This document shows, one piece after another, positions 9,685 through 58,478 of a stretch of 64,000 bases of DNA. This DNA is from Candidatus Auribacterota bacterium (GTDB lineage Bacteria; Auribacterota; JAFGBW01; JAFGJP01). The stretch lies in contig JAGLFH010000005.1 of assembly GCA_023144635.1 (NCBI GenBank), positions 1 through 64,000 of the forward strand. Reading direction: 5' to 3'. Position 1 is the first letter of the stretch. Every line of letters starts with the position of its first letter. A program made the translations under genes and the position numbers. The notes under the pieces are model-generated. The model had not been told where the DNA came from. It did not search any database and saw nothing but the letters and a program-made list of their open reading frames with translations.

Positions 9685-10317
9685 ATGTTCTTGACATATC
9701 TTATGAAATGTAAAATAATCGAAAAAGGTTTCAGAGATAATAAAATTACCTTAAATATGAAAAAATTCTCTAATTATATTTTATTAGTTCTCTTTATATT
9801 CCTGATCTCAGGATGGTCATCAGGCATTCTCTATGCAAATGAAACTCCGAGAATAATAGTAAGCGATACAGGCGGGTCCCCCATAACAGCAACAGTATAT
9901 ACTACAGGTATTGGTAAGGCTCCTGATAATCACTATCTTACTGATAATCAAAAAAAGGAAATGGGGAGAAGAGCCGCTGTTGTAGATGGATACAGAAACC
10001 TGATCGCAACTTTTCAAGGAGCTGAACAATATATTGTAAAAGAGGGGATAAGTATTTTTTCTGTTGAAGGGTATCTGAAAGATGTTGAAATATTAGAGAC
10101 TCGTTATTTTATAGACGGGACAGTTGAAGTTGATATGATGGTTTTGGTAAAAGTTTATGATGATTCTATAGTGAAAGATAATAATATCATTGGGAAATTG
10201 ACAGGAAAAAGTTCACCTGCTTTAAAAGGAATCAGAATATTAGAAGTAGATGAAGCAGATGAAAAAATAAAGGATGGGGATATTATTATAAGTGAAATAA
10301 AAGCAGAGGATTATTAA
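9685..10317 (+). CDS. LPP20/FlgP-like envelope protein
   Basis: Residues about 85-165 (RRAAVVDGYRNLIATFQGAEQ ... VEILETRYFIDGTVEVDMMV) match the LPP20 fold found in Helicobacter LPP20 and Vibrio FlgP. AAGGAG lies 6 bases before the ATG at 9685, but a signal peptide begins only at Met25 (9757, KKFSNYILLVLFIFLISGW), so the mature start is uncertain. No clear lipobox cysteine is present. It leads a three-gene cluster with a FlgT-like and a CsgG-like gene, suggesting a shared periplasmic or outer-membrane structure. Confidence 0.65.
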   Translation: MFLTYLMKCKIIEKGFRDNKITLNMKKFSNYILLVLFIFLISGWSSGILYANETPRIIVSDTGGSPITATVYTTGIGKAPDNHYLTDNQKKEMGRRAAVVDGYRNLIATFQGAEQYIVKEGISIFSVEGYLKDVEILETRYFIDGTVEVDMMVLVKVYDDSIVKDNNIIGKLTGKSSPALKGIRILEVDEADEKIKDGDIIISEIKAEDY

Positions 10318-10361
10318 TATTTTAATCGTAACATTTAAACCAGTTTAAACGGAGAGCGCAT

Positions 10362-11573
10362 ATGAAAAAAATTATAATAGTAGCTTTATTGATATTCTCA
10401 TTTGTTTTTGCTACCAATGTACTAGCTGAAGAACGTGTTGTTTTGGCAACAGGTCTTTCGGCAGGTACTGATGAAAAAGCTAAGGATGAAGCTGTTTCAC
10501 GTGCACTTCGCGATGCAGTTGAAAAAGCTGTTGGTGTTATGGTAGAGGCAGATACGATGGTAAAGAACTATAAGCTTCTGGAAGATAAAATATACTCAAG
10601 GGTAAAAGGATATGTCAAAAGTTATGAAATAATATCCGAGAACAAAGGAGATAATGGTACATATGAAGTTAAAATAAGGGCTGTTGTTTCTGCAGACATT
10701 CTGGAAGATGATCTGGCAGGCATTCGGGTGATCAAGAGCTCTAAGGGGAATCCAAGAGTTCTGGTGCTTATAAATGAATATATAGACGGTGATGAATCTA
10801 CTATTGATAATGTAAGATCTACTATGGAAAAAGAGTTTTTAGGGAAGAGTTTTAAGCTAATAGACAAGACACAGTTAACTGCAATAAAGAACAGGGATGT
10901 AAGTGTAAGCTATGAAGATCCTGAAAAAGCAGCGGCGCTTGGAGCAAGACTTGGCGCAGAAGTGGTCATAACCGGTACAGCAAATGCAGAGTTCATGGAA
11001 AAAAGTAAACCTTATGGTGTCTCTGTTTTTGCTTACAGTGCCCAGGCAAATGTAAAGGCAGTAAAAACAGATACTGCTGAAGTTATGAGCGTTGTCTCTG
11101 CTGATTCTGTAAAAAGAGCAGGAGGAAGAAAAATATCAGCAAATGAAGCTCTCACAGAGTGTGGTAAGAGGGTAAGCGATAAACTTATAAAAGAAATAAT
11201 TGAAAAATGGCGTTCTGAAATTTATAACGATATGGAAATAGCTCTTTTTATATCAAATGCTGGCTCTGATGAAAGAACAGTAATATTGAAAGAACTCAAA
11301 GGTATTAGAGGGATAAAAGAAGTAAATGAAAAAAGCTATACAAACAATCTTATAGAGATTGATCTTACAATAGAAGGTGCTGCTGCAAAAGTAATAGATA
11401 AAAAAATAATGGAAAAGTTAAACTATTTGAAGCTTAAAAACAAAACACCTAACAGACTTGATTTTGAGGTTTCAAAGGTACCCGGTAAAGCAAGTAGAAC
11501 CAAAACAAATGATTCAGTTATAAAAGCTGTTCAGACAAGTGTAGTAAAGACTGAAGAAGCTGAAAGTCATTAA
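10362..11573 (+). CDS. FlgT-like secreted protein (FlgT N-terminal domain)
   Basis: A signal peptide (KKIIIVALLIFSFVFATNVLAEE) is followed by VVLATGLSAGTDEKAKDEAVSRALRDAVEKAVGVMVEA. This arrangement of alanine-rich helix, then VKGYVKSYEIISE and a beta-rich KIRAVVS is the flagellar T-ring FlgT N-terminal domain. The next part (NPRVLVLINEYIDGD ... LGAEVVITGTANA) resembles the TolB/CsgG-like middle domain. The C-terminal third is unassigned. It sits 44 bases after the LPP20-like gene with a GGAG ribosome site. No flagellar gene is in the window, so a non-flagellar role is possible. Confidence 0.6.
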   Translation: MKKIIIVALLIFSFVFATNVLAEERVVLATGLSAGTDEKAKDEAVSRALRDAVEKAVGVMVEADTMVKNYKLLEDKIYSRVKGYVKSYEIISENKGDNGTYEVKIRAVVSADILEDDLAGIRVIKSSKGNPRVLVLINEYIDGDESTIDNVRSTMEKEFLGKSFKLIDKTQLTAIKNRDVSVSYEDPEKAAALGARLGAEVVITGTANAEFMEKSKPYGVSVFAYSAQANVKAVKTDTAEVMSVVSADSVKRAGGRKISANEALTECGKRVSDKLIKEIIEKWRSEIYNDMEIALFISNAGSDERTVILKELKGIRGIKEVNEKSYTNNLIEIDLTIEGAAAKVIDKKIMEKLNYLKLKNKTPNRLDFEVSKVPGKASRTKTNDSVIKAVQTSVVKTEEAESH

Positions 11574-11612
11574 AAAACTGATGAACCTGAAACACAGGAG
11601 GATGAGTCAAAC

Positions 11613-12593
11613 GTGAAAAACAAAAACTTTTTTATATTAGCAATGATTTTGATTACAAGTATGCTGCTGACAGGTGAAGTCTTTGCAGAAGTGTTAAAAG
11701 GAAAGCTTGTTAGTGGTCCTGCCAGCGGGAAAGTATTAAAACCTACTTTACCTCAACCAAAGGGTCCTAAAAAAGTTGTTGCAGTGTCCGAGTTTGAAAA
11801 TAAGACAAATTGGAGAGGACAGTGGTCATTAGGAACAGGCATGTCTAATCAGCTTATAACAGCACTTATTAATACTAACCGTTTTATTGTTCTGGAGCGT
11901 GAAGATATAAAAGGTGTTATAGCTGAACAGGATTTTGCTAATAGCGGGAGAACGACAAAAGTGGGCGGAGCAAAAACGGGACAGATAAATAGAGCTCAGA
12001 TTCTTATTAGAGGCGCTATTACTGAATTTGAAACAGGAACAAAGAAAAATGCCGGTGGTTTAAGGATAAAGGGATTTACTCTTGGAGGAGCGAAATCACA
12101 AGCTCATGTAGCAGTTGATATAAGGATATATGATACAACAACGAGTCAGGTGCTTGATTCACAAACCTGTGTAGGTCTTGCAAAATCAGGTGGTATGACA
12201 ATAGGTTATACAGAATCTGATTGGGGAATAGGAACATCAAACTTTCAGAAAACTCCCCTTGGACAGGCAACCAGACAAGCTATTGAAAAAGCTGTTCGGT
12301 TTATTGCGATGAAAATGGAAAGTGTAAAATGGCAGGGAAAAATAATAAAAGTCAACAATAATGTGCTTTATATAAATCATGGAAAACAGTCCAATATACA
12401 AGCAGGAGATAAGTTTGAAGTATATAAGCCTGGTGAAGCACTTATTGATCCTGATACAGGTATGAATCTTGGAAGTGAAGAACAATTGATAGGGAAAATA
12501 GAAGTAACACAAGTGCTTGATAAATTTTCAAAAGCTACAAAAATATCAGGAACAGGTTTTGGCAGGGGTGATATTATAAGGTACGAATATTAA
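11613..12593 (+). CDS. CsgG/HfaB-family protein with FlgT C-like tail
   Basis: GTG start, 10 bases after AGGAGG. A signal peptide is followed by a CsgG fold: KKVVAVSEFENKTNWRGQW, LITALINTNRFIVLEREDI, AQILIRGAITEFE, and AVDIRIYDTTTSQVLDS. CsgG-type proteins form outer-membrane secretion pores or periplasmic assembly factors. The last 80 residues (VLYINHGKQSNIQAGDKFEVYKPGE) look like the FlgT C-terminal beta domain. No lipobox cysteine is seen. It is the third gene of the cluster and is followed by a clear terminator. Confidence 0.72.
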   Translation: MKNKNFFILAMILITSMLLTGEVFAEVLKGKLVSGPASGKVLKPTLPQPKGPKKVVAVSEFENKTNWRGQWSLGTGMSNQLITALINTNRFIVLEREDIKGVIAEQDFANSGRTTKVGGAKTGQINRAQILIRGAITEFETGTKKNAGGLRIKGFTLGGAKSQAHVAVDIRIYDTTTSQVLDSQTCVGLAKSGGMTIGYTESDWGIGTSNFQKTPLGQATRQAIEKAVRFIAMKMESVKWQGKIIKVNNNVLYINHGKQSNIQAGDKFEVYKPGEALIDPDTGMNLGSEEQLIGKIEVTQVLDKFSKATKISGTGFGRGDIIRYEY

Positions 12594-12618: not shown

Positions 12619-12646
12619 AAAAGCGGAGAGCAATTCTCCGCTTTTT
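12619..12646 (+). terminator. Intrinsic terminator after the CsgG-like gene
   Basis: The stem AAAAGCGGAGA / TCTCCGCTTTT with a 5-base loop is followed by a T-run, 25 bases after the stop codon. The A-run before and T-run after the stem would work in both directions. It closes the LPP20/FlgT/CsgG cluster. Confidence 0.85.
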
Positions 12647-19988: not shown

Positions 19989-20017
19989 TTGATATTTGAA
20001 AATTGATTTTGTTAATA
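19989..20017 (+). promoter_or_regulatory. Promoter of 6S RNA
   Basis: TTGATA (19989-19994), a 17-base spacer and TTAATA (20012-20017) precede the 6S RNA 5' end by 5-7 bases. The left part overlaps an inverted repeat (TCAAGTATT ... AATACTTGA) that begins just after zapA. Confidence 0.5.
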
Positions 20018-20019
20018 AT

Positions 20020-20200
20020 CCCTGCTTTGTTCGTCAGAGCTCAATTACATCTTTGAACCAACATATTTTTAATGGGAGCTAATAGACCACCCGGGATGAG
20101 AACCATCTTAAGTACGGTTCCATGAACGGATTGGTGAAGCACCCACCTGTAGTTACCGGGTTCAAGAGATATTGATTCAACGGCAAAAGCAGGGTTTTTT
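20020..20200 (+). ncRNA. ssrS: 6S RNA
   Basis: A roughly 180-base RNA that mimics an open promoter and binds the sigma-70 holoenzyme. The ends pair (CCCTGCTTTG near 20020 with CAAAAGCAGGG ending at 20194), followed by a T-run serving as terminator. Internal hallmarks are CTTTGAACC, GGTGAAGCACCC, CCTGTAGTTACCGGGTTCAAG and ACGGCAAAAGC. It sits between zapA and the rarA/5-FCL pair, the classic synteny. The exact 5' base is estimated. Confidence 0.9.
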
Positions 20201-34731: not shown

Positions 34732-35079
34732 ATGGGAATGATAGAAAAAAGAAAAACTGCAAGGATCTATAAAAAGATCAAAATAGAAGTAAAAAAGGAT
34801 GCAAAGATCCGTAATCTGGGTTCAATAGACCTTAGCTCAATGGGGATAAGGTTCCGGACTAATAAGAAGGTTCCTCTTTTTGATCAGTTGGATTTTTCAA
34901 TGGATCTATCTACAGATGAAAAAAAGAAAAATGAGCTTTCTTTCAGGGCAACTGTAATTCGCTGTGAAAAATGCAAGAATGCAAAAGGATATCAGGTTAC
35001 ACTCTTTTTTCATGATCTAAAAAAGAGTGAAATAAAGAAAATAGAACAATACATTGAAAAACTGAGGATAAAAAAATGA
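34732..35079 (+). CDS. PilZ-domain protein
   Basis: A 115-residue cytoplasmic protein that is almost entirely a PilZ domain. Both cyclic-di-GMP motifs are present: RKTAR (R-x3-R) near the start and DLSSMGIRF (D/N-x-S-x-x-G) at about residues 34-42. The rest is the PilZ beta barrel with a C-terminal helix IKKIEQYIEKLR. It overlaps pilT by 4 bases (ATGA), so equal amounts are likely made and a direct effect on the pilus motor is plausible. Confidence 0.85.
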   Translation: MGMIEKRKTARIYKKIKIEVKKDAKIRNLGSIDLSSMGIRFRTNKKVPLFDQLDFSMDLSTDEKKKNELSFRATVIRCEKCKNAKGYQVTLFFHDLKKSEIKKIEQYIEKLRIKK

Positions 35080-36167
35080 ATATAGATGAAATTTTAAAAG
35101 CTATGGTTGAAAAGAACGCCTCAGATATACATTTTAAAGTAGGGAATACTCCTATAATGCGCATAAATAAAGATCTTGTTAACTGGGGTGATAAAAAACT
35201 TAATTCAGAAGAAACAGAAGCAATAGCAAGAAATATAATGACTTCCGGCCAGTGGCAGACCTTTGAGTATAACAAAGAAATAGATTTTGCATATACTTTG
35301 GCGGGTGTAGGCCGGTTCAGGACAAATGTTTTTATACAAAGAGGTTCTATTGGTCTTGTTATGCGTTCTGTTAAAACAACGATACTTAATTTTGAACAGC
35401 TTGGTCTTCCTACTATCCTTAAGGAAGTAAGTCTGGTAGAAAGGGGTATAATAATACTTTCCGGTGCTACTGGAAGCGGAAAGTCTACAACTCTGGCTGC
35501 TATGATAGATCATATAAACAGGACACGCCGCAGGCATATTATCACGATAGAAGACCCTATAGAATTTTTACATCAAGATTTAAGCAGCATTGTAAACCAG
35601 CGTGAAGTAGGTATAGACACTATGACTTTTCAGACAGCTCTTAAGCATGTTTTAAGGCAGGATCCAGATGTTATGCTTATTGGAGAAATGAGAGATCAGC
35701 AGAGCTTTACTGCGTCTTTGAGCGCTTCAGAAACAGGTCATGTTGTTTTAACAACTGTGCATGCTGATTCTTCGGTACAATCCATAGAAAGGATTTTAGA
35801 CTTTTTCTCAAGTCCTGAGCAAAGAGAACAGGCTAGGCTTCAGCTTTCAACTAATATTGCCGCTATAATATGCCAGAGGCTAATACCAAATATTGATAAA
35901 CAGGGTCTTGTTCCTGCTGTTGAAATTTTACGGGGAACTCCCATAGTTAAAAAATTCATTCGAGAAAATAAATTTGATAAGATCTACAAAGCTATTGAAA
36001 CAGGTAAAGAGGACGGGATGCAGACTTTTAATCAGAGTATTCTGAAACTGATACAGGAAAATAAGATCTCTGAAGAAGATGGTCTTTCAAAAGCATCTAA
36101 TCCTGAAGCCCTGCGCATGAATTTGAAAGGTATCTTCCTTGACGATTCAAAGGGAATTCTTCGTTGA
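35076..36167 (+). CDS. pilT: Twitching-motility ATPase PilT/PilU type
   Basis: Hexameric ATPase that retracts type IV pili. NIDEILKAMVEKNASDIHFKVGNTPIMR is the N-terminal PAS-like domain. Walker A SGATGSGKSTTLAAM, IEDPIEFLH, Asp and Walker B boxes RQDPDVMLIGEMRD, and TGHVVLTTVHADSSVQSIERI follow. Length 363 is normal. Preceded by PilZ; no pilA, pilB or pilQ in the window. PilT versus PilU cannot be decided. Confidence 0.92.
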   Translation: MNIDEILKAMVEKNASDIHFKVGNTPIMRINKDLVNWGDKKLNSEETEAIARNIMTSGQWQTFEYNKEIDFAYTLAGVGRFRTNVFIQRGSIGLVMRSVKTTILNFEQLGLPTILKEVSLVERGIIILSGATGSGKSTTLAAMIDHINRTRRRHIITIEDPIEFLHQDLSSIVNQREVGIDTMTFQTALKHVLRQDPDVMLIGEMRDQQSFTASLSASETGHVVLTTVHADSSVQSIERILDFFSSPEQREQARLQLSTNIAAIICQRLIPNIDKQGLVPAVEILRGTPIVKKFIRENKFDKIYKAIETGKEDGMQTFNQSILKLIQENKISEEDGLSKASNPEALRMNLKGIFLDDSKGILR

Positions 36168-39991: not shown

Positions 39992-42709
39992 ATGATTATG
40001 AGTAAAAAAATAAAATTGCAATCTAAGCTTATCAGGCTTTTGCTTCTTATGGGGATCCTTCCTCTGGTGATCTTTATATTTTTTTCTTTTAATGAAGCAG
40101 AAAAGATAATTATAGAAAAAACTGGGCTTTCACTACAAAAAATTGCTACTGAAAAGGCTGCAAGGATAGACATAGTTATAGAAGATAAAATAAGAATAGT
40201 GGAAAACATTGTTAATGATGCTTTGTTTAGCAGCAGGTTTTTTGGTAATGACTTAAATTCAAAATCTAAAGATTCAGGAGCAATTGATGAGGAAACTGCC
40301 AAAGATATTGAGATTATCATTAAGCTGAATAAGGAAATAAAACACATCACCATAATAGACCTTAATAATAATATTATATATCAGGATATTAAGGATGAAT
40401 TGTTTAAAAATGAAAACAGAAAGTTATGTAACGGTATAATAAAGGATTCGAAAGAATACAGGACCTTTTTATGCAATTTTAAATACAAACCTTCAAAGTT
40501 GATAATGACTGCAAATATAGTTGTTCCTATAAAAGAAAATCAAGGGATTGTTAAAGGGTTTGCTATTTTTAATGTAAGCCTTAGGGAAATAATATATCTT
40601 ACAAGTTTTTTGAAAATAGATGATCCCTTTATCACAATTTTTCGGGATGACGGTTTTGTCGTATTAGATACGGGCAATATTTTTTATCCGTTAATCCTCT
40701 CACGAGAGATGTTGCTGGAATCTACTTTAAATAAATTTGGGTGGAGGAAAGGACTTGCGCGTCAAAAAAAAGATAATTATATTATTGGATATGCTCATCT
40801 TGAAACAATGAACAAACTACTTTTATCAAATGAAAACTATTATGTTTTGCTTTCTTTAGACGAAAAAGATGCTCTCCTTCCTGTTCTTCAGAACTATTTA
40901 CAGTTCTTTTTGATCATTGCTTTGATCATTATTCTGATACTTTTTGCAGCTCTTTATGATGTAAATAAAATAATACGACCTATAAGAGACCTTAAAGAAG
41001 GTGCGAAAATGATAGGAAAAGGATTCCTTGATCACAGACTTTCTATTCATACTGGAGATGAAATCGAGGAACTGGCAAATGCTTTTAATGAAATGGGACA
41101 GCGATTGATGGTTTCAAAGGATAAAATGGAAGATCAGACACATGAACTAAAGCGTCTAAATGACATAAAATCCAATTTTTTATCTTTAATATCCCATGAA
41201 CTGAGAACACCTCTAATGATAATTCAGGAATCTGTTTCTCAGGTGCTTGACGGAATAAAAGGTTCAATAAATGAGTCCCAAAGAGAATACCTATACATGA
41301 CCAAAAGAAATATTTTGAGACTTAATAAGATAATTGCAGATCTTTTGAACATATCACGTATAGAAGCAGGGAAGATAGTAATAAGGAGAAAAAAAATAGA
41401 TATTGCACGTACCCTTCGCGATGAAATAGATATGTATAGATTCAGGGCGGAAAAAAGAAGTATTAAGTTTCTTTCATCTATACCTAATGATGCTTTAACT
41501 CTTTATTGTGATGAAGAGAAAATAAAAATTATCATTGATAATCTTATCAGTAACGCAATTAAATTTACACCTAAAGAAGGAACTATTCGACTTGATGTGA
41601 TAGATAATGTAAATGAAATAGAGATAATTGTAAGTGATACAGGAAAGGGGATCCCTATAGAATTTCAGCAGAAGATGTTTGATAAGTTTGAACGACTCAA
41701 TAATATTCCGCTTGCAGGATCAGGAAGCACGGGATTGGGGCTTGCTATAGCAAAAGAGTTTGTATTGTTACATAAAGGAAAGATCTGGGCTAAAAGTGAA
41801 GAGAATAAAGGGAGCTCTTTTCATGTGATTTTTAATAAGTATACTGCAAGTAAATATTTCAAGGAGTATTTTAATGAGAAAATAAGAGAAGCAGAAGGAA
41901 GGCAGATCGAGCTTTCTGTTATTGTGCTGAGAGTAAACGAGTATAAAAAGGTCTATGTTGATCCTGCTAAAAAAAGAAAGCTTTTTTCACATCTTGTAAA
42001 TATTTCATTTAATAACATTTTTGATTATGAAGAGATTATTCCTCTTAAAAATATGGATGAGATATATGCTTTTCTTTTTACAGATACAAATGGAGCAGAA
42101 ATTATTGTTGAACAGCTAAACAGGATAGTAAATGATTATCTTGAAAGTAAAAACATGAAGAATAACTTTCTTGTTAACATCCTTTCTGTTTCTTATCCAG
42201 AAGACGGACGTGATCTAAAATCACTGCTAAGCACAGCGGGAAAGTTATTTACATATCTTGAGCCATTAAGAAGAAAGTCTAAAAGACTTGGAGAAATGCT
42301 GTTAGAAAAAGGCCTTGTAGATGAAAAAGCCCTTAAAAAAGCACTTGGCTATCAGGATCGAACAGGTCATTTAATAGGAAAGATCTTAATTGATTCAAAA
42401 ATAGTGAAAATCGACGATGTGGCTAAGCTTTTGAATGAGCAGCTCAGGATTCCTTTAATAAAAAGAGAAGATGATGTAAAAATAGAAAAAAAACTGTTTG
42501 AAAAAATACCAAAAGAATTTATTATAAAATATAAGGCAATTCCAGTTAAATTAGATGAGGGAATATGTCAACTGGCTATGGTGAATCCTTTTGATGTTCA
42601 GGCTATAAAGCTTATTTACCATTTGACAGATTGTAAGAAGGTATTGAGTCAGCTTATTATGGAACAGGATTTTGAGTATTTCATGAAGAAATATGAGTTA
42701 ATAGTGTAG
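39992..42709 (+). CDS. Sensor histidine kinase with degenerate GGDEF-like and C-terminal MshEN domains
   Basis: A 905-residue protein. TM1 (LLLLMGILPLVIFIFFSF), an extracytoplasmic Cache-like sensor of about 270 residues, TM2 (FLIIALIIILILFAALYD), HAMP, HisKA with phospho-His near 403 (SLISHELRTPLM), and HATPase (NLISNAIKFT, SDTGKGIP, GSTGLGLAI). Residues about 635-760 fit a GGDEF fold whose signature is degraded to NMDEI (residue 687). From 764 comes KRLGEMLLEKGLVDEKALKK, matching the MshEN motif RLGxxL-x3-GL that binds cyclic-di-GMP in GspE-type ATPases, then the rest of that domain (IPKEFIIKYKAIPV, CQLAMVNPFD). Output partner is probably the next gene. Confidence 0.85.
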   Translation: MIMSKKIKLQSKLIRLLLLMGILPLVIFIFFSFNEAEKIIIEKTGLSLQKIATEKAARIDIVIEDKIRIVENIVNDALFSSRFFGNDLNSKSKDSGAIDEETAKDIEIIIKLNKEIKHITIIDLNNNIIYQDIKDELFKNENRKLCNGIIKDSKEYRTFLCNFKYKPSKLIMTANIVVPIKENQGIVKGFAIFNVSLREIIYLTSFLKIDDPFITIFRDDGFVVLDTGNIFYPLILSREMLLESTLNKFGWRKGLARQKKDNYIIGYAHLETMNKLLLSNENYYVLLSLDEKDALLPVLQNYLQFFLIIALIIILILFAALYDVNKIIRPIRDLKEGAKMIGKGFLDHRLSIHTGDEIEELANAFNEMGQRLMVSKDKMEDQTHELKRLNDIKSNFLSLISHELRTPLMIIQESVSQVLDGIKGSINESQREYLYMTKRNILRLNKIIADLLNISRIEAGKIVIRRKKIDIARTLRDEIDMYRFRAEKRSIKFLSSIPNDALTLYCDEEKIKIIIDNLISNAIKFTPKEGTIRLDVIDNVNEIEIIVSDTGKGIPIEFQQKMFDKFERLNNIPLAGSGSTGLGLAIAKEFVLLHKGKIWAKSEENKGSSFHVIFNKYTASKYFKEYFNEKIREAEGRQIELSVIVLRVNEYKKVYVDPAKKRKLFSHLVNISFNNIFDYEEIIPLKNMDEIYAFLFTDTNGAEIIVEQLNRIVNDYLESKNMKNNFLVNILSVSYPEDGRDLKSLLSTAGKLFTYLEPLRRKSKRLGEMLLEKGLVDEKALKKALGYQDRTGHLIGKILIDSKIVKIDDVAKLLNEQLRIPLIKREDDVKIEKKLFEKIPKEFIIKYKAIPVKLDEGICQLAMVNPFDVQAIKLIYHLTDCKKVLSQLIMEQDFEYFMKKYELIV

Positions 42710-56559: not shown

Positions 56560-57450
56560 TTATCCACCTAAAGGATGGAATTTCTTATGTATCTTTTTTA
56601 GATGGCTTCTATCAATGTGCGTATATATTTGTGTAGTGGAAATATCAGCATGTCCGAGCAGTTCCTGGACTATTCTTAGATCTGCCCCATAGGTCAAAAG
56701 ATGCGTTGCAAATGAATGCCGGAGAGTATGAGGATAAACATCTTTTGTTATGCCGGCTTTCAAAGCATAGTGCTTTATTATTTTCCATATACTTTGCCTG
56801 CTTAGCCTTTTTTTGAATTTTGATAAAAAAAGAATTTCTGCCTTTTTTGCATTATTATCCCTTTCTTTATTTATATAATTATTAATAGATAAAATTGCTT
56901 TTTTACCCATAGGTATAATTCTTTCTTTACCTCCTTTACCTATGCATTTCAAAAATCCGGAAGATAGGTTTATATTACATATTGTAAGTGATGAAAGCTC
57001 ACTTACACGAAGTCCGGATGCATAGAGAAGTTCAATGATCGAGGTATTTCTCCAGTAATTAGGTTTTATTTTGTCTACGGAGTCGATCATATTTGCAATC
57101 TCCTGAGGACTTAATATATTTGGAAGAGTACTCCATATTTTAGGGCTATCAATAAATTCAGAAGGATCTTCTACTATAAACCCTTCATTGAATAAAAATT
57201 TCATAAAACCTTTAATTGATACTATTGCTCTTGCAATAGTACTGTAATTTTCTTTTTTTTCAGATCGGGCAATAGTGAAATCTACAATATGCTTTCTATT
57301 TATCATGTTATAATCAGATACTCTTTTCTTTTTAAGAAAAGAAAGAAATTTTAAAAGATCGCTGGAATATGCCTGAATAGTATTATTTGAGAGACCTTTT
57401 TCAATTTTAAGGAATTCAATATATGAATCGAAATGGTGAGAAGTGTTCAT
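56560..57450 (-). CDS. Tyrosine recombinase, XerC/XerD type
   Basis: A 296-residue chromosome-dimer resolution type recombinase. The N-terminal SAM-like domain (FDSYIEFLKIEKGLSNNTIQAYSSDLLKFLSFL) is followed by the catalytic residues Arg (ASGLRVSELSSL), Lys (GKGGKERIIP), His-x-x-Arg (PHTLRHSFATHLL), His (LGHADISTTQ) and Tyr (IYTHID). It is complete. Overlaps the CheB-like gene by 4 bases, an odd partner. It could also be an integrase; no attachment site or island edge is visible. Confidence 0.88.
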   Translation of the reverse strand: MNTSHHFDSYIEFLKIEKGLSNNTIQAYSSDLLKFLSFLKKKRVSDYNMINRKHIVDFTIARSEKKENYSTIARAIVSIKGFMKFLFNEGFIVEDPSEFIDSPKIWSTLPNILSPQEIANMIDSVDKIKPNYWRNTSIIELLYASGLRVSELSSLTICNINLSSGFLKCIGKGGKERIIPMGKKAILSINNYINKERDNNAKKAEILFLSKFKKRLSRQSIWKIIKHYALKAGITKDVYPHTLRHSFATHLLTYGADLRIVQELLGHADISTTQIYTHIDRSHLKKIHKKFHPLGG

Positions 57451-58478
57451 TTTTCTTTTATCAGCTGAACGCAGACATCAGCTATTTTATAATATGGAAG
57501 TATATAGTCAACACATCCTGATTCAATAGCGCTTTTAGGCATTCCGAAAATCATGGACGTCTCCTCATTTTGAGCTATAACTGTGCCACCAGCTTTTTTA
57601 ACAGCCATTATACCTTCAGTACCATCATGCCCTATACCTGTAAGTATTGCAGCAACAATACGTTTTCCAAAAATTTTTATAGCAGAGAACATAGTTATGT
57701 CTATTGCAGGTCTTACGCTCCATAACTTGGCTCTTTGGTTAAGATGTAAAGCGTTATCATTACCGTTTTTTACTACTTCAAGATGATAGTCTCCTTTAGC
57801 GACATAAATATGATTATCATATAAAATATCTCCTTCTTCTGCTTCTTTCATGCTTTTGGAGGTATTTGTAGAAAGCGTCTGAACTAGTGTACGTGAAAAA
57901 AGAAATGGTATATGCTGGACTATTATAATTGCCGCGGGAACTTCATCCAGCATCTGCAAAAGAATATTTTTTAAAATCCTGGGACCTCCAGCAGAAGAAC
58001 CTATTATTACCAGCTTTTCCGCTTTTTTCAATCCAGGAGTTTCTAAAACAACCTGTTTTTCTTCTTTAGGTACCTTGGATTCGATGTTTTTTATCTGGTA
58101 GTTTATTTTTTCAGCAAGAATTTCGCTTGTATCATGTTCTCCAAGTTTAAAAAATGAAAAAAGAACTCCAAGTTTGACCTTTTTTATAAGTTCATTTATT
58201 CCTATTTCATCCTTGAACTTAGTAGAATAAACAAGAAGTTTTACTGGAGAATTATTTAAAAGAGGATGCAGTTTTAAAAGAAATTCATAAGAGATCATAT
58301 CTGTTTTGATTATAAGTATGTCCGGAAGGAATTCTTTCAGCATACGTATAAGCTTTAGCTCGCTGTGGGCATGTCCTATTATTATAAAATTTTTTGTGGT
58401 TTTTGTTATCCCCTGAATGATCTCAGTGTTATGATAACTGTCTTCTAAAAAAATTAAAGTTTGTAGATTTTTTTTCAT
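57447..58478 (-). CDS. CheB-like methylesterase with degenerate receiver
   Basis: A 343-residue protein. The C-terminal two thirds is a CheB methylesterase: LVIIGSSAGGPRIL (Ser), IIIVQHIPFLFS (His), LTGIGHDGTEGIMAVKKAGG (Asp). The N-terminal 120 residues have the receiver fold, but at the phosphoacceptor position reads ILIIKTDMI (Lys instead of Asp), so phosphorylation is unlikely. CheR, CheA and MCP genes are absent. It follows the CheY-like gene by 12 bases. Confidence 0.85.
   Translation of the reverse strand: MKKNLQTLIFLEDSYHNTEIIQGITKTTKNFIIIGHAHSELKLIRMLKEFLPDILIIKTDMISYEFLLKLHPLLNNSPVKLLVYSTKFKDEIGINELIKKVKLGVLFSFFKLGEHDTSEILAEKINYQIKNIESKVPKEEKQVVLETPGLKKAEKLVIIGSSAGGPRILKNILLQMLDEVPAAIIIVQHIPFLFSRTLVQTLSTNTSKSMKEAEEGDILYDNHIYVAKGDYHLEVVKNGNDNALHLNQRAKLWSVRPAIDITMFSAIKIFGKRIVAAILTGIGHDGTEGIMAVKKAGGTVIAQNEETSMIFGMPKSAIESGCVDYILPYYKIADVCVQLIKEK

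Follow-up and report, generated by a model that had tools for sequence, protein, structure and literature searches.

Why would proteins related to the outer-membrane rings of flagellar motors be encoded in an operon that has no flagellar gene near it? This question is raised by three genes on a stretch of 64,000 nucleotides (hereafter the window) from a Candidatus Auribacterota bacterium (assembly GCA_023144635.1, contig JAGLFH010000005.1, positions 1 to 64,000). A sequence-only reading of the window had described them as a cluster of LPP20, FlgT-N and CsgG-FlgT-C proteins and had proposed, as no flagellar gene was seen, an outer-membrane complex with another job. As judged from sequence and structure searches, the cluster is best read as encoding a widespread non-flagellar outer-membrane ring complex built from the basal-disk, H-ring and CsgG fold families.

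Organization of the locus

The three open reading frames, here called A, B and C, lie on the forward strand (Table 1) and are separated by 44 bp (A-B) and 39 bp (B-C). Each is preceded by a Shine-Dalgarno-like stretch and a terminator-like hairpin follows the last one, hence the genes at 9685-12593 are one operon. All three products open with a signal-peptide-like segment and none of them has a lipobox, as read from the sequences; a possible alternative start of A at 9757 would yield a protein of 186 aa with the signal peptide at once. Upstream, surA-, pdxA- and ksgA-like genes are oriented divergently from the operon, while a tRNA gene and then thrS-infC-rplT-pheST-like genes, recognised from their translations, lie downstream. 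Although many relatives have a sigma-54-like site in front of the cluster, none was found upstream of the window operon. Elsewhere in the window, a 6S RNA (77 bits) is located at 20016-20199 between pheT-like and AAA ATPase-like genes, and the gene at 39992-42709 encodes a histidine kinase that unusually combines HAMP with an MshEN domain at its C-terminus.

Table 1. Features of the A-B-C operon, in window coordinates.
Feature	Position	Strand	Basis
Gene A, secreted LPP20/FlgP-family protein, 210 aa	9685..10317	+	Profile match to FlgP structures; length count of the insert
Gene B, 403 aa, type-I signal peptide, three domains	10362..11573	+	Pfam, LipL46 model, structure model, profile search
B, SHS2 (LPP20/FlgP/FlgT-N) domain, residues 24-110	10431..10691	+	Secondary structure of the model; C. 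jejuni FlgP 3.7e-5
B, stretch with FlgP-type hairpin insert	10512..10607	+	Length count; role of the insert from PMC12222027
B, TolB_N/CsgG/LpoB-like domain (FlgT middle-domain-like), residues 131-288	10752..11225	+	Pfam, model, Foldseek
B, beta-alpha-beta-beta-alpha-beta-beta domain, residues 290-370, where FlgT has its C domain	11229..11471	+	Model
Gene C, 326 aa, type-I signal peptide, no lipobox, CsgG + FlgT-C	11613..12593	+	Pfam, model, Foldseek, profiles
C, CsgG domain, residues 52-242, both membrane-hairpin-forming regions kept	11766..12338	+	Pfam, profile
C, FlgT_C domain, residues 250-309, also resembling the TsaP C-terminal domain	12360..12539	+	Pfam, profile
Intrinsic terminator-like hairpin closing the operon, 12-pair stem then T run	12619..12645	+	Sequence

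Domain composition and fold relationships

The CsgG domain of protein C scores 139.9 bits in Pfam (9.4e-41; cut-off 20.8), whereas its FlgT_C domain (1.7e-5, 25.6 bits) stays slightly under the cut-off of 27 and is matched in 20 of 23 relatives. In B, the FlgT_N match (5e-4, 20.9 bits) likewise lies under its cut-off of 28.8, which is passed by B relatives from Nitrospirota (8e-10) and from a KSB1-like genome (8e-7). A has no credible Pfam match, but its family profile matches the FlgP structures of C. jejuni (1.6e-11) and Vibrio (1.5e-7), which places it in the LPP20/FlgP family, and it aligns to the repeats of a further protein, X, found in relatives (see below), with an hhalign probability of 98%; the X repeats themselves exceed the Pfam LPP20 cut-off. 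The B profile matches C. jejuni FlgP as well (3.7e-5), and that of C matches CsgG at 7.5e-14, spanning both hairpin regions. In these sequence comparisons, the FlgP and FlgT labels are therefore sub-threshold on single sequences and hold with family profiles. B also matches the NCBIfam model of the Leptospira protein LipL46 at 2.8e-13 over residues 34-352, its score of 49 bits lying far under the 400 bits required for this family. A search of PHROGs returned families of unknown function only.

AlphaFold2 models of B and C, calculated as single chains from thin alignments (pLDDT 76-78; B 78), lead to the same relatives. With Foldseek, FlgT of the Vibrio LPHT ring comes out first for the C model (E 2.7e-16, TM 0.60), and FlgT 3w1e also ranks ahead of CsgG (8e-10). 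The top match of B is FlgT too (2.6e-11), domain by domain only (TM 0.31), and the C. jejuni FlgP structure matches its first domain. Since profile and structure searches agree, the earlier assignments, A as FlgP-like, B as FlgT-N plus a middle-like part and C as CsgG plus FlgT-C, were right, and the kinship of the cluster is with FlgP/FlgT, i.e. basal disk and H-ring, and with CsgG. The earlier picture of H/T-ring proteins that had been split and rearranged presupposes a direction of evolution.

Compared to the Vibrio H-ring protein FlgT (PDB 3w1e; LPHT ring 8z5n), the SHS2 N-terminal, the TolB_N/CsgG-like middle and the FlgT-C domain are all present over B and C, and both are exported without a lipobox as FlgT is. 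However, the three domains are distributed over two chains, B (N-terminal and middle-like) and C (CsgG/middle-like and C-terminal), and no single chain carries all of them; B ends with another domain, C is nearer to CsgG by sequence, and the proteins occur in organisms without flagella. With respect to the Campylobacter FlgP/FlgQ basal disk, the LPP20/FlgP fold family includes A, X and the N-terminal domain of B, and FlgQ consists of multiple FlgP repeats (PMC12222027), as X does. The differences are that the proteins described here are not linked to the presence of a flagellum, that X can contain as many as three repeats and that few members look like lipoproteins.

The FlgP-type beta-hairpin insert, which in FlgP and FlgT has been linked to the formation of rings (PMC12222027), sets A apart from B and X. 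We measured the stretch that holds it as the residues between the helix arginine and the conserved glycine after the hairpin. The stretch comprises exactly 32 residues in all 44 B proteins compared, in the X repeats caught by the search pattern, and likewise in the FlgP proteins of C. jejuni and Vibrio, both of which form rings. In A it is shorter, with 24 residues in the window protein and 20-26 in nearly all members. Hence, B and X have the fold with a ring-forming insert and would be expected to form rings, whereas A, whose insert is shortened, probably does not form them by the same means.

A conserved module in several phyla

In Auribacterota relatives the gene order is A, X, B, C, with C sometimes doubled, and the X proteins contain FlgP-like repeats, usually three of them. 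X is missing from the window operon. A lone LPP20 protein on another contig of the same genome (L105 826-1923, G000:C11), adjoining a ychF-like gene, has an insert of the full 32 residues and could replace it. This protein, with a sub-cut-off score, is the only further LPP20 protein found in the genome and also the sole other match to the B profile there (E 5e-5). Several Auribacterota relatives have a sigma-54 activator-cluster gene divergent from the module (identified by Pfam in one of them), several have FecR-LPP20, DUF3307 and CHASE2-cyclase genes downstream, and sigma-54-type promoter-like sites precede the cluster in many relatives.

The cluster described from the window is confirmed, and it is conserved far outside the phylum, so that a chance arrangement can be dismissed. 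In other phyla, 15 genomes have B immediately upstream of C. The Nitrospirota order is A, X, LPP20, B, FecR-LPP20, C, a FecR-LPP20 gene thus standing between B and C, and the order in KSB1-like genomes is an LPP20 gene, TPR-SLH, B, C, FecR. The tree of B follows phylum and family lines; the sequences from Nitrospirota, Edwardsbacteria and Omnitrophota each fall on one side of a branch, those of the Omnitrophota among the Auribacterota, and judged from this tree the inheritance of B looks mainly vertical. Among plasmid records, one distant B only was found, in Deinococcus, where it forms a long branch.

Distribution in relation to flagella

The absence of flagellar genes holds for the window but not for the genome, which encodes FlhA (contig G000:C74) and, on contig C48, FlgH inside a flg operon that reads flgF-flgG-flgA-flgH-flgI-flgJ-flgN-flgK from its translations. 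The window itself is not wholly free of motility-related genes, as a CheB methylesterase gene (chemotaxis) lies at 57447-58478. A flagellar cluster elsewhere with a second full set of FlgP/FlgT proteins had been named as the observation that would speak against the proposal, and only its first half was found: no FlgP, FlgT or FlgO relative was recognised in the stretch of the flg operon that was read, and profile searches of the genome's contigs found no second full FlgP/FlgT set.

We used 44 Candidatus Auribacterota genomes as phylum sample and FlhA as marker of the flagellum. FlhA was detected in seven and FlgH in six of them, whereas full-length B is encoded in 19, of which 13 are without FlhA; nine of these 13 are at least 90% complete. 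In other phyla, FlhA is missing from 17 of the 19 genomes that carry B, and B therefore does not occur in step with the flagellum. Nevertheless, B is found in 6/7 FlhA-positive and 13/37 FlhA-negative Auribacterota genomes (Fisher p 0.03 with kinship not taken into account, and p 0.12 when the comparison is restricted to genomes at least 90% complete), and this mild enrichment in flagellated Auribacterota counts somewhat against a non-flagellar reading. The proposal of another job is thus supported by the comparison of genomes, many of which retain the set but have no FlhA, and not by the absence of flagellar genes from the window, on which it had been founded.

Possible functions of the complex

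The explanation that we favor, with about an even chance of being correct, is that the A-B-C operon encodes a non-flagellar, outer-membrane-associated periplasmic ring complex from basal-disk (FlgP), H-ring (FlgT) and CsgG folds. The gene order, the homologies and the export signals are directly established, as are the conservation in several phyla and the occurrence in many FlhA-less genomes; the architecture would be as follows. At the outer membrane, C may form a ring like those of CsgG and FlgT, and since C retains both CsgG hairpin regions, this ring is possibly a pore. B would pack into concentric rings via the FlgP-type hairpin insert, together with X or a different full-insert LPP20 protein where one is present, and A with its short insert may cap or space these rings. 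The whole might be a scaffold, either bracing the outer membrane where an export channel passes through or tying this membrane to the wall; this is the most likely of the roles but a guess from the neighbours in relatives (FecR-LPP20 proteins, TPR-SLH protein). In the window organism, the complex would exist alongside the flagellum and not as part of it. Against this explanation stand the thin single-chain models, the match of B to FlgT by single domains, the missing X, the short insert of A and the C proteins that are mostly without a lipobox.

Alternatively, C could be a pore of the CsgG type through which an extracellular fibre or polymer is secreted, A and B acting as its gate or adaptor proteins in the periplasm; we regard this as rather unlikely. 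The resemblance of C to FlgT would be compatible with such a channel, and likewise with a secretin collar of the TsaP kind. CsgG, the curli channel, is an outer-membrane lipoprotein that forms a nonameric pore, and C, in an export context, contains a whole CsgG domain above the Pfam cut-off, including both hairpin regions. However, the curli partner CsgF is missing from the window genome and from 43 of the 44 Auribacterota genomes, and the sole one found adjoins a different CsgG-like gene (G016:C120:7856-8847, a curli-type pair). Moreover, no conserved substrate gene adjoins the cluster, C has an extra FlgT-C domain and an overall fold nearer to FlgT than to CsgG, and a lipobox-like motif is present in just 10 of 112 relatives of C.

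A third explanation, that A, B and C are the flagellum's own outer-membrane ring (H-ring/basal disk) encoded apart from the flagellar operons, with non-flagellated kin keeping a relic or reusing it, is in our view unlikely. It would fit with the flagellar genes of the window genome, the FlgP/FlgT folds of the three proteins, the occurrence of B in nearly all FlhA-positive Auribacterota and the lack of another FlgP/FlgT set in the contigs searched. The many B-carrying genomes without FlhA, inside and outside the phylum, argue against it, as does C, which is still more widespread. Furthermore, B and C are conserved over the whole protein, unlike a relic, and no flagellar gene was recognised beside the cluster at loci with identified neighbours.

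An arrangement like that of TsaP, with the complex placed around a type IV pilus or a type II secretin, is even less probable. The C-terminal domain of C matches TsaP-type LysM proteins in profile searches (4.6e-11 and 1.1e-9), a PilT-like T2SSE ATPase gene, possibly for a type IV pilus retraction motor, lies at window 35076-36167, and secretins are encoded in 43 of the 44 Auribacterota genomes. But this near-universal occurrence includes genomes without C, which is thus not needed for secretins; only the C-terminal domain of C resembles TsaP, whose LysM domain is missing from C according to Pfam, so that a LysM and FlgT-C-like combination is not found, and no pilus gene was recognised beside the cluster in relatives. 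Finally, a function as LpoB-like outer-membrane activators of peptidoglycan synthases, to which weak LpoB matches in B and C would point, is hardly credible, as the LpoB, TolB_N, FlgT_M and CsgG matches overlap one region where CsgG scores far higher, and no linkage to cell-wall genes was seen.

Evolutionary implications

The folds were already known, while their non-flagellar combination and its spread appear to be undescribed: a literature search (LPP20 with CsgG or FlgT, TsaP with FlgT; few subscription journals covered) found no description of such a cluster. The origin of the varied outer-membrane disks and rings of flagellar motors is unsettled, the basal disk being considered comparatively ancient and its protein family broad (PMC12222027). 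Conserved, built on the same folds with a ring-forming insert of identical length, and found in several phyla without flagella, the operon is a concrete candidate for their source. Tentatively, the non-flagellar ring complex favored above, in its A-X-B-C form, might be a widespread machine that predates the basal disk and H-ring or parallels them, and FlgP and FlgT were possibly recruited from it. If so, flagellum-less bacteria would harbour an extant relative of a flagellar add-on. The operon also offers a setting for tests of a non-flagellar role. Besides the C family, a protein with a CsgG-like part and a length of about 1030-1060 aa is encoded elsewhere in the window genome (L034 6519-9614, G000:C67), and similarly long ones occur in the genomes G017, G020, G021 and G009.
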